From: Panopea generosa
Taxonomy: Eukaryota; Mollusca; Bivalvia; Adapedonta; Hiatellidae
Assembly (NCBI GenBank): GCA_029582155.1
Contig: CM055902.1
Span: forward strand, 14,582,086-14,646,085
Reading direction: 5' to 3'
Length of the DNA stretch: 64,000 nucleotides
This document shows, one piece after another, positions 15,576 to 60,329 of the stretch. How positions within the stretch are numbered: the stretch's first letter is position 1; the number at the start of each line of letters is the position of its first letter. The notes below the pieces were generated by a model. The model was given only the letters and a program-made list of their open reading frames with translations. It did no database searches and was not told where the DNA came from. Made by a program: the position numbers and the translations under genes.

Positions 15576-15661
15576 CTATATTAAAATAACAAAATGCATT
15601 GCCAGTGTGGCTATCAAAGCATATATCTTCAAACTAGTCGCCACTGCAGAATTATCAGGAT
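15576..15661 (-). CDS. Gene A exon 8: GPI-attachment tail and stop
   Basis: It follows the acceptor TTTGTTTCAG. The first codon completes in phase 1 to Asp, giving DPDNSAVATSLK, then a hydrophobic run (IYALIATLAMHFVILI) ending at TAG (15578-15576). Small residues, a short spacer and a hydrophobic terminus with no cytoplasmic tail fit a GPI signal, with the likely omega site at Asn or Ser of DNSA. A C-terminal transmembrane helix is the alternative. The exon and its 3' flank align with gene B's last exon at 46084-46163. I see no convincing AATAAA close downstream. Confidence 0.8.
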
Positions 15662-58100: not shown

Positions 58101-60329
58101 TGTTGTCGTAATAATTTTAAACGCGTGATAATCGCACATGGTAATGGGATCCCAGCTTCTACTTTCGCTTTCAAAATCTTCACAGCAGTGCTCTGATTGG
58201 CTGGTAGAGTGGTTAATCTAAGGTGACCTTCTATGCGTCTCCGTCAAATCTACTTTGCGTAGAGTATGAAAATTTAAACGTGTATCTGATTTTAATAAGA
58301 TTGCTATAATACCGTAGTTTGGGGGGATTTTAATACTCTTTGTGGTCTTATAAGGCGGACTAGTGGTACCCCAGTCAGTGCATTTCAAAACCCCAGTCAA
58401 TTTTTTGTCAATAAGGAGAATAGAGTCAGTCCATACGTTGTTTTTCAGAGTTCTTAGTGGTACCCCTGTAGTAAATAACCTGTCCAAGGAGGTTAACACT
58501 TTCTCTGTATGTTTTTATTGTTATAATTGCAATCATTCTATACATGTAGTTTTGCTGTTTTCGCTGTTTTGACTGCTGTGTCTCATCGACAAATGAACAT
58601 TGTATTAATCAGTTGATATGCAATGTGTTGTGACAGGTTAATGAACAATATTCAAACAATTATGAGAAGCAATAAAATAATAACAGGAACCTAACACGCT
58701 CCTGTCGAGTCAAATCGAGGCAACTGTTTCGGTAAGAAATTGCGGAGAGACCAAAAACAATTATCGAAATTATTCACAATACCGCTGATAATGTTAAGCA
58801 CCGAGGCAAATTCGTTATTTATAAACTTGGTCAAGATGAAGCGGATTTGAGCAGTTGTGATCTTATGTTAACAAATAAAAGTGTTAAAGATGTGGGACTC
58901 ATCTTTTCACGGGAGAATTAACTAAACATCCGCGATCTAAACTATTTTATGACAAAACTTCGAATCCATTCAAGCCTTTTAAAATTTTTTGTGGAAGATT
59001 AGGCATATTCATATTCTTACAAACATATTCTCATGTTCACTTTTGTCATACAAAAGATTGCGTTGAGGTCATTTCTTTGTCCAGTGGATGGAGTAAATTC
59101 ATGCATATTTTCGTCAGGAAAACATAAAATATACCATCTAAAAATAACAGTTTCATATTTTTTTTTCTTCAGATGTTCAGGTAAATACCCCCATGAAATA
59201 CGCAAAATGCCACGAAATCGGTTCCCTGCAATAAAAAGTTCCAATAGAGCAATTTTGGGTATTGTGAGCAATGAATGTCGTTCCTGATAGGTTTTGAAAT
59301 GCACCAGAATGCACGATATGGTATTTAGAAACCTAAAACACACACAGAAGTCTATCTTTTCACTGATCTAAATTTTGATATTTTATACGATTCCACTACA
59401 CTGAAAAACTAGGGCCGACAGCAGTATGCACAATTTGGCTCTTTAAAATCCAAAATGTCCAACGTAGCCACCTGGCGGGAGAAGAGATCGCCCCAACTCT
59501 CAACTGCCTCGCCACTACGCGACTCATGCACGCAGCAAACTGGTGGCATTTACCCTGCCCTCATTACAAACTGTTGTGTTTTCTGAATAATGTTTCCTAT
59601 ATACAATTACTTTGAACAGCTCATTGGTTTGTTGTTTTCAAACATAATTCTGTTACAGTCGTTAATGACTTTGACGGATATTTGTGTCACATTTACGTTC
59701 TAAACTATATTAAACCAATAAATTCATTTTTTTATATTGTTTAGAAAGGCTATAATTATTCAAACGTAAGCCGCCATCTCAATATATAATACAATTTTAT
59801 AATAAGCATGCAGCGGAAAGCATTTTTTCTCAGAGTATTATATATATAAATATTATAATTGAAGATGTTCCTAAGTTTTGCAGGAACACATATGTGTCCA
59901 AAAGCGGAATTACAAGCAAATGACACACCCACCACAACAGTATAAACATAATTCATACAATAATCACACTACTAACATACAGAACGTTGTCGTCTTGAAA
60001 AGATCAACCGACAATTATAGTAAGTATAATTGTAGATTTCTAAAAGTTGCTCATTTTCAAAAACATTCGACAGCTTCATATAAATATATAAACGTTTGGT
60101 TCTGAAACAAACATTGTTGAAAATACAGAAATTAATAGAAAAATATTATATAAAAGAATTTGGCCATATAACTAAGATAAACTATTATGAAAAAATAATT
60201 ATATCATACACATGCTTTCAGAAATTTGAAGAATTCAACTACGATTCTGAATATTAGACATGTCGTTACCATTTATCTATAACTTTAAAATATATCTTTT
60301 AGTTATTAAATGTAAAGAACACTTACCAT
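46084..60329 (-). CDS. Gene B: minimal GPI-anchored single-CCP protein (4 exons, 107 aa)
   Basis: Paralogue of gene A. Exons: 60329-60327 (ATG), 51431-51365 (signal peptide), 50148-49975 (CCP), 46163-46084 (GPI tail, stop TAA). Coding length is 324 nt and open. Protein: residues 2-23 signal peptide with core ALCVFLFMSCVY, residues 24-81 one complete CCP (four Cys, Trp), residues 82-107 DPDNFAVATSL plus a hydrophobic end. Exon phases, ATG placement, GC donor and TATA box all match gene A. I searched 46.2-49.9 kb by eye for further CCP or EGF exons and saw none. That stretch is filled with microsatellite and Harbinger debris, so internal exons may have been lost. It could be a functional one-module protein or a decaying gene; open frames and intact splice sites favour the former. 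Confidence 0.72.
47150..47205 (-). repeat. tRNA-like SINE head in gene B intron
   Basis: Minus strand GGGTCACCGTTCGAATCACA resembles a B box. No full structure. Confidence 0.35.
47269..47310. repeat. (TA)n microsatellite
   Basis: TA dinucleotides with one TTTATA break. Confidence 0.9.
47456..47512. repeat. (AT)n microsatellite
   Basis: About 57 bp of pure AT, giving Tyr-Ile frames on both strands. Confidence 0.95.
48225..48365 (+). other. Short GC-richer reading frame, possible exon or element remnant (46 codons)
   Basis: Opens MSNRRSMSQYGTRSKKRSNK, continues DPTAAAVVNDELVEPQ and stops at TAG. It is preceded by GATAGCTACAG, which could be an acceptor. Composition is richer in Arg, Lys and Ala codons than its AT-rich surroundings. 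I do not recognise the family. It is antisense to gene B and could be a remnant of a Harbinger-type accessory frame or of an unrelated gene. Confidence 0.3.
48668..48793. repeat. Imperfect palindrome, ~53-bp arms
   Basis: The left arm has TTGTACAATATGGGAATATA and CGTACGTATTGTGGTGAAAA; the right arm is its diverged complement, ending in TATTCCTGTATTGTACAA. A single-arm relative stands at 50485-50525. Confidence 0.75.
48820..49170 (+). repeat. Direct repeat flanking the gene B CCP exon, copy 1
   Basis: ATTCTATATAGTG, GTATATCAGTAAATACTAAT, GAAATTGTTAAACAT and TGTACACGCAACA align with 50745-51010. The Harbinger fragment starts at its end. Confidence 0.8.
49191..49640 (-). mobile_element. PIF/Harbinger transposase fragment
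   Basis: Minus-strand frames read FGMYTQLT, DLMREDVAGLEKRPEGRS, RLQKKNDTWYRKELPSGLMM, TITMRHLATRDSYHSLMYSF and SVAHNTIFKVVSEVC. This is the N-terminal half of a HARBI1-like transposase (the LP-GL...LRxLATGDSYxSLxYxFRVAHNTI region). An in-frame stop splits it and the catalytic DDE part is absent. It lies in gene B's intron 3. Confidence 0.8.
49738..49855. repeat. Low-complexity ACCTACTTAA / ACGTAGTAGT repeats
   Basis: Short direct repeats AAACCTACTT (x2-3) and ACGTAGTAGT (x2-3), just downstream of the CCP exon. Confidence 0.75.
49975..50148 (-). CDS. Gene B exon 3: CCP/sushi module
   Basis: 174 nt, phase 1-1, acceptor TGTATTACAG and donor AAAAAAG|GTAGCG. Encodes DCDALLSTNVTNGKV, TATYSCDTGYTLSG, TATRTCADSG, WNGTAPTC and KK. 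Four Cys and the Trp are present and there is no stop. It is closest to gene A CCP module 1. Confidence 0.87.
50283..50470. other. CpG-rich patch with a 42-bp doublet
   Basis: Two copies of CCAATACGAAA followed by GATTTTCGGGACG (starting 50321 and 50363) in an interval with many CpGs, including GTTTGACGCGTAAA and CACGTGG. It lies about 170 bp upstream (in gene orientation) of the gene B CCP exon. Confidence 0.6.
50745..51010 (+). repeat. Direct repeat flanking the gene B CCP exon, copy 2
   Basis: Counterpart of 48820-49170, offset about 1.86 kb. Identity is highest over GTATATCAGTAAATATTAAT and the following 120 bp. Confidence 0.8.
51365..51431 (-). CDS. Gene B exon 2: signal peptide, GC-AG donor
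   Basis: 67 nt after the acceptor TATTTTCAG. Encodes Glu-Arg-Leu-Pro-Tyr, the hydrophobic core ALCVFLFMSCVY, then Arg-Tyr-Ser-Ser-Ala. Donor is GCAG|GCAAGT, the same GC donor as gene A exon 2. It aligns with that exon along its whole length. Confidence 0.78.
52190..53310 (+). mobile_element. LINE 3' fragment (CR1/jockey-like), copy 1
   Basis: Plus-strand frames read LLLADDIVLFTTSSKS (the RT ADD motif region), a YGSE(I/V)-like block, KLHIKFCKYILGVRKQSSK-type thumb sequence and a terminal Cys motif CKLCTQNVVETEYHFLLCC, ending with KPLLYKVSKFIKEAFDIRE. Multiple frameshifts. It lacks endonuclease and most of RT. It lies in gene B's intron 1. Confidence 0.78.
53345..56729 (+). mobile_element. Near full-length but inactive LINE (CR1/jockey-like), copy 2
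   Basis: In order on the plus strand: endonuclease pieces (EIVTFISNYDLICLSET; VNICIVNGRQTHPN; NGGQSQIDYLLAKYSNLRYF), RT (DPNNYRGITLLSCFGK, DAQFGFKDTAF, DLTKAFDL, GLFQGEITSPTLFS), thumb (RVHRKIIKWILNVKFS, YGETGRLQLI, RILKYWFKF) and tail (ETEDEFHFVLICD, FIIRALKLRQEFLNAN, stop). Many stops and frameshifts. A non-LINE stretch at about 54830-55110 with a CTTT-rich tract looks like an insertion. Confidence 0.8.
57264..57500 (+). repeat. tRNA-derived SINE, family 1
   Basis: GGGGTCAATTACGGTTAGAT head, GAGATCGAATCTCC (B box), CGCCCGGCCACAGTCTCCG and GGGATCCAAGGAAACGGTGG. In gene B's intron 1. Confidence 0.78.
57668..57799. repeat. 44-bp tandem repeat, 3 copies
   Basis: Unit begins TGTAGCTACGTGTTTCAGCA and ends GATGCTTATCACTGTA. 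The third copy is more diverged. Confidence 0.9.
57827..58259. mobile_element. MITE with 42-bp inverted ends, TA target site
   Basis: The left end CGCACAGTAGATCTGACAAT followed by GCATAGAAGGTCACCTCAG is mirrored at the right end (58218-58259). It is flanked by TA on both sides, as in Tc1/mariner-type elements. A second inner inverted pair, GCCAATCAG and CTGATTGGC, lies further in. No transposase remains; 433 bp. Confidence 0.87.
58260..59850. other. Unassigned DNA in gene B intron 1, with a GC-rich patch
   Basis: No gene recognised. 59400-59575 is GC-richer (CTGGCGGGAGAAGAGATCGC, CGCCACTACGCGACTCATGC) and may be the head of an old interspersed element. Two minus-strand frames of about 93 and 108 codons (58218-58499 and 59017-59343) have no family resemblance that I can identify. 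Confidence 0.4.

Follow-up and report, generated by a model that had tools for sequence, protein, structure and literature searches.

A tandem pair of predicted CCP-module surface protein genes with different module numbers in Panopea generosa

We analyzed a 64,000-nucleotide stretch of the Panopea generosa genome (assembly GCA_029582155.1, contig CM055902.1, positions 14,582,086 to 14,646,085; hereafter, the window) by six-frame inspection and splicing, and two complete predicted genes, A and B, were found on its minus strand. Gene A (28142-15576) has eight exons and a product of 327 amino acids, in the order start codon, signal peptide, four complement control protein modules (CCP1-4), a six-cysteine epidermal growth factor (EGF)-like module, and a glycosylphosphatidylinositol (GPI)-type tail, whereas gene B (60329-46084) has four exons and a product of 107 amino acids, in the order start codon, signal peptide, a single CCP, and a tail related to that of A. 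We consider it likely that A and B are animal genes arranged in tandem whose predicted products are GPI-anchored surface proteins built from CCP modules of phase 1-1, with a history of duplication and of loss in B and, least certainly, with a role in recognition or adhesion.

All five CCP exons scored above the cut-off of Pfam Sushi (PF00084; E 2.5e-10 to 3.9e-11; 41.0-43.6 bits against 20.7), and four cysteines and one tryptophan were invariant among them. Because these matches are well above the cut-off, the exon chains are not a product of chance. A first-pass annotation of this DNA had described the difference in module number, and the exon chains and Sushi matches agree with it; the two outer ends that it gave were also right, 15576 being the last base of the stop codon of A and 60329 the A of the start codon of B. 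Its statement that every internal exon is of phase 1-1 holds for the CCP and EGF-like module exons but not for the signal exon, which is of phase 0-1. All introns after the signal exon are in phase 1 in both genes.

When the window was compared with itself by blastn, A and B aligned in six collinear blocks from the promoter to the 3′ flank, with 69-85% identity. A strong GC donor, CAG/GCAAGT, was common to both signal exons (25370-25361 and 51365-51356, minus strand). The collinear blocks and the common donor support the proposed paralogy, and as judged from the alignments, A and B are shown to be duplicates of one ancestral gene. The box TATATAAA was present at 28219 in gene A and at 60411 in gene B, 77 and 82 nt before the ATG, respectively, with an additional TATATA at 60519 in B. 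In both genes, the ATG alone closes its coding exon, with GTAAGT directly after it (28142-28140 and 60329-60327). The signal peptides, Met included, were MEQLSTALCVLLCMSCVYRYSSA in A and MERLPYALCVFLFMSCVYRYSSA in B, and a hydropathy peak was observed at the N-terminal end of both predicted proteins.

The intron between the CCP and the tail of gene B holds parts of three introns of gene A, in the same order. A 41-nt block (49974-49934), the weakest of the three yet continuous with the CCP exon match, corresponds to the start of the CCP1-CCP2 intron (24363-24323; E 0.001). The match of 47020-46860 to the end of the CCP3-CCP4 intron (17343-17174) scored 73.5, compared to the best scores of 38 for 1075 other pieces of the window and 40 for 1000 Markov shuffles, and the third block corresponds to the EGF-tail intron (Table 1). 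In B, six bases separate the latter two blocks, whereas 1171 bases containing CCP4 and the EGF-like exon lie between them in A. On these alignments, B is shown to be without exactly the CCP4+EGF segment. Because both break points are inside phase-1 introns, the frame survived the absence of this segment, and the flanks lying side by side in B bear out the earlier idea that modules can be added or dropped without frame damage. The absence of CCP2 and CCP3 from B is a separate event because the retained block sits between the two gaps. CCP2 and CCP3 with their introns were 92% identical over 572 columns (blastn), differing at 9 of 177 exon sites and 25 of 385 intron sites, and their doubling in A is shown by the alignment to be younger than the A/B split. 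A dead EGF exon (20374-20247) lies in the CCP1-CCP2 intron of A, with the splice sites kept, a shifted length, and in-frame stops. A duplicated CCP4-EGF unit that included the CCP was considered and rejected; only the EGF part of this idea stands because the flanks of CCP1 and CCP4 are not homologous.

To the gene B CCP, AlphaFold2 gave a structure model with a predicted local distance difference test (pLDDT) score of 85.6. A fold search of this model in the PDB gave 182 matches at E up to 10, none reaching 0.001. The top match was 2yra (E 0.0032), titled as an F-box zinc-finger protein; among the best 50 of the 182 matches, ranks 2-50 were titled as CCP-bearing proteins or their complexes, and the TM-scores to the query over all 50 were 0.64-0.84. 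A profile built from the five CCPs recovered them at E 5.9e-29 or better, a circular result since they went into the profile; the next-best of the 3587 open reading frames (ORFs) in the window had an E of 3.5. Two N-glycosylation sequons (NVT and NGT) were found in the CCP part of gene B (49975-50148) and none in mature A. The presence of another CCP gene, or of remnants of lost CCPs, elsewhere in the window was considered and rejected: neither the CCP profile nor tblastn searches with peptides of the modules, signals, and tails led to any locus other than A, B, and the dead EGF exon, for two of the tblastn searches among the matches listed, and for the signal and B-tail peptides on complete match lists. 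When viral contigs were scanned for relatives using the CCP alignment, 18 pattern matches were obtained, of which none was confirmed.

The EGF-like exon alone stayed below the Pfam cut-offs (EB, 18.2 against 24.3 bits; EGF_Teneurin, 13.2 against 24.3; EGF_3, 11.4 against 28.5). The whole protein A exceeded the cEGF cut-off (29.6 against 26.6), and the better of the two matching stretches, residues 111-127, falls in CCP2. Profile searches of the single exons supported the CCP part of the annotated architecture in all five cases but not its EGF part. The EGF-like exon has six cysteines including C-x-C-x2-G-Y, a spacing that we take to be that of EGF. Its single-sequence structure model had a pLDDT of 84.9, and among the 51 PDB fold matches up to E 10, none was significant, the best being a chain with EGF modules (E 1.3).

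The tails end in DPDNSAVATSLKIYALIATLAMHFVILI and DPDNFAVATSLAFSAMVATLAIHLFF, with a hydropathy peak at the C-terminus resembling a GPI signal, and a candidate GPI site, DPDN-S/F-A, was picked by eye. We infer a GPI anchor from this short hydrophobic end. Weighing against our reading, the GPI and signal peptide calls rest on hydropathy, and a 1-nt gap inside the tail exon (near 15590 in A and 46095 in B) shifts the final residues of the two proteins relative to each other. Both tail ends remain hydrophobic despite this gap. An AATAAA begins at 46083 in gene B, directly after the stop, and the first AATAAA of gene A is 545 nt downstream.

The CCP4+EGF segment may have been lost from B or gained by A. 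The dead EGF exon differed from the EGF-like exon at 46 of 127 sites (19 of 42 third codon positions), compared to 193 of 986 sites in the four A/B noncoding blocks pooled (Fisher P 5e-5). If the dead exon was copied within the locus, its greater divergence suggests that the EGF-like exon was in the locus before the A/B split and was then lost in B; this argument would not hold for a dead exon derived from a different locus. It is also weakened by the flanks of the two exons, which appear no older than the split: those of 26 and 30 nt differed at 11 of 50 sites, which does not exceed the difference between A and B (Fisher P 0.72), and those of 60 nt at 13 of 58 and 8 of 50 sites. The same flanks favor the alternative that the short form is ancestral and that A gained a CCP4+EGF cassette in a phase-1 intron by classic exon shuffling. 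Moreover, the adjoining blocks in B have the appearance expected of an empty acceptor intron, and class 1-1 modules are, according to part of the account in PMC3927616, inserted as a rule into phase 1 introns. Set against the divergence of the dead exon, these points leave a gain in A clearly less likely than not, and loss from B is favored, though not proven. The locus resembles the class 1-1 module shuffling of animal genes, as described in part of PMC3927616, in that phase-1-bounded modules move between genes, and it differs in that an intron-to-intron deletion is more likely here, the two flanks being still recognizable in the paralogue.

The exons of A and B differed at 66 of 329 sites (20.1%) and the noncoding blocks, a yardstick drawn from alignable blocks only, at 250 of 1220 sites (20.5%). 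This equality suggests that the genes are fast-evolving or weakly constrained. The dN and dS values over 104 codons were 0.246 and 0.258, respectively (CCP, 0.286 and 0.232; tail, 0.272 and 0.188; signal, 0.128 and 0.441). A ratio near 1 together with exon divergence equal to noncoding divergence also fits weak or no selection, and B could accordingly be read as a decaying copy without function, as could be said of its fewer modules and the 1-nt gap near the C-terminus; a CCP merely free of stops was obtained in 33-43% of neutral simulations, so that chance alone would leave a CCP free of stops in roughly one out of three of them or more. However, the splice sites, TATA box, and AATAAA of B are intact and all its CCP cysteines are retained. 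Frame-breaking gaps in the A/B exons numbered only 1 (close to the stop codon, within the tail exon), compared to 6.2 expected from the noncoding blocks (P(<=1) about 0.015). With 39 random changes, a CCP retained its cysteines and tryptophan and acquired no stop in only 2.5-2.9% of 20000 neutral simulations, and with 46 changes in 1.7%. The frame and the CCP cysteines are kept despite the divergence, which speaks against plain decay, and we regard a functionless B as improbable. The earlier suggestion that the genes may be fast-evolving stands insofar as the coding sequence has diverged as much as the noncoding sequence, a pattern that weak constraint would also produce. Between CCP2 and CCP3, 2 synonymous and 7 nonsynonymous changes are too few to judge selection, and nine random changes keep the CCP frame residues in 43% of simulations. 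The common strand of A and B, the upstream position of B, and the phase-1 module introns would also suit a single transcription unit in which alternative splicing combines exons of compatible phase, but a TATA box, a start exon, and a stop are separate for each gene, and we find this arrangement very hard to credit.

Table 1. Positions in the window of the features of genes A and B
Feature	Position	Strand	Evidence or remark
Gene A promoter and 5′ leader	28131..28522	-	Homologous to B 60318-60741; blastn 69% over 425 columns
Gene A start-codon exon, Met only (coding part)	28140..28142	-	Donor GTAAGT
Gene A signal-peptide exon	25370..25436	-	Phase 0 in, 1 out; GC donor CAG/GCAAGT
Gene A CCP1 exon	24364..24540	-	Pfam Sushi E 3.9e-11; counterpart of the CCP of B, flanking intron also homologous
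Dead EGF-like exon in gene A CCP1-CCP2 intron	20247..20374	-	tblastn E 7e-7
Gene A CCP2 exon	19478..19654	-	Pfam Sushi E 2.5e-10
Gene A CCP3 exon, recent CCP2 duplicate including introns	18228..18404	-	Pfam Sushi E 4.5e-11
Gene A CCP4 exon	16938..17105	-	Pfam Sushi E 8.5e-11
Gene A EGF-like (or EB-like) six-cysteine exon	16071..16199	-	Below all Pfam cut-offs
Gene A CCP4+EGF segment, absent in gene B	16003..17173	-	Flanks six bases apart in B, 46860/46853
Gene A GPI-type tail exon and stop	15576..15661	-	Splicing, hydropathy
Gene B promoter and 5′ leader	60318..60741	-	Homologous to A 28131-28522
Gene B start-codon exon, Met only	60327..60329	-	Donor GTAAGT
Gene B signal-peptide exon	51365..51431	-	GC donor
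Gene B CCP exon, only one	49975..50148	-	Pfam Sushi E 1.2e-10; AlphaFold2 pLDDT 85.6
Gene B intron block, end of A CCP3-CCP4 intron (17343-17174)	46860..47020	-	Alignment score 73.5
Gene B intron block, A EGF-tail intron (16002-15835)	46690..46853	-	81% identity, E 4e-41
Gene B GPI-type tail exon and stop	46084..46163	-	Splicing, hydropathy

In the rest of the window, neither RNA families at the gathering score nor tRNAs were found. Pfam scanning covered 14 of the 38 ORFs of at least 90 amino acids; 12 of the 14 gave nothing above the cut-off and 2 matched reverse transcriptase, one above the cut-off and one below it. These are broken fragments at 33002-33860 on the minus strand (RVT_1, 7.9e-10, and 0.0012 for the one below the cut-off), presumably of the non-long terminal repeat type. 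A repeat family with about 75% identity links 21478-24224 with 31720-33109; it also occurs in the CCP1-CCP2 intron of A and may partly explain the length of that intron. Tandem repeats were observed at 823-2507 (a satellite-like array with a 48-bp unit and about 35 copies), 30571-31579 (a 371-bp unit, 2.8 copies, 94% match, with GACG runs), and 63589-63995 (75-80 bp, reaching near the window edge).

Proteins A and B would pass through the secretory pathway and be displayed on the outer leaflet of the membrane. With polypeptide masses of about 28 kDa and about 6 kDa, respectively, A would form a rod of four CCPs standing on an EGF-like base, and B would be one CCP held near the membrane. Less certainly than either of these steps, they may bind surface or soluble ligands in recognition or adhesion by way of CCP faces that change fast while the cysteine frame is conserved, and B, having one CCP, may act as a decoy or as a ligand binder of short reach instead of regulating complement. 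Of the functional readings, recognition or adhesion is the broadest.

CD55, or decay-accelerating factor, of the vertebrate regulators of complement activation (RCA) family has four tandem CCPs, a GPI anchor, and a long Ser/Thr-rich stalk. Protein A resembles it in carrying four tandem CCPs on a GPI-type end, and CD55 chains 1ojw and 1h2p matched the gene B CCP fold with TM-scores of 0.75-0.76; A differs from it in having an EGF-like module between CCP4 and the end, in being without the long Ser/Thr-rich stalk, and in having the one-CCP paralogue B. The likeness would be consistent with the pair regulating complement like CD55 or CD46, with A binding C3-like opsonins on the cells of the animal itself. 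CR1, CR2, and factor H were the top phmmer matches (best 60 of 89), but this ranking probably reflects CCP number. A regulator motif pattern occurs in sushi proteins of several invertebrate phyla including Mollusca and Annelida, as stated in part of PMC6683126, and the smallest regulatory unit in most complement regulators is given there as three consecutive CCPs; A, with four consecutive CCP exons, could reach this number, and B, with one, falls below it. We judge complement regulation by the pair to be unlikely, and by the one-CCP B it also appears unlikely. Because tandem-sushi proteins have been wrongly pooled as one family, a point made in part of PMC3927616, membership of the RCA family is not claimed.

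Other known proteins offer partial likenesses. Selectins have a transmembrane plus a cytoplasmic part. As in A, CCP and EGF modules are combined in them in one surface protein, and the E-selectin chain 4c16 was the second fold match of the gene B CCP, whereas no C-type lectin domain was among the Pfam matches, and the tail here is of the GPI type. The oyster Clec-CCP, reported in part of PMC11312191 to activate a MASP-like/C3 lectin pathway, is likewise an invertebrate CCP-bearing protein and differs in being named as a lectin with a CCP. Passages of PMC9083331, PMC8089394, and PMC8047071 gave no reason to alter our interpretation. No title among the literature matches listed named this architecture, a comparison that did not extend to eukaryote genomes. 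As a tentative extension that we would rate below an even chance by a wide measure, the genes may belong to a family of fast-evolving surface-recognition genes whose neighboring copies gain and lose CCP and EGF modules via phase-1 introns. Paralogues, and perhaps individuals, would then differ in reach and specificity, and exons could be shared among tandem copies.

The genes are of an ordinary kind, but their history is unusually readable in that modules came or went without breaking the frame. In most cases, the frame-safe gain and loss of class 1-1 modules has to be deduced from comparisons of distant proteins. Here, single steps can be read in the DNA: the flanks of the missing modules adjoin in B, and the dead exon in A has a bearing on which event came first. 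Should recognition be their role, the genes would illustrate how the number of modules in a single CCP scaffold at the cell surface can vary between four and one.

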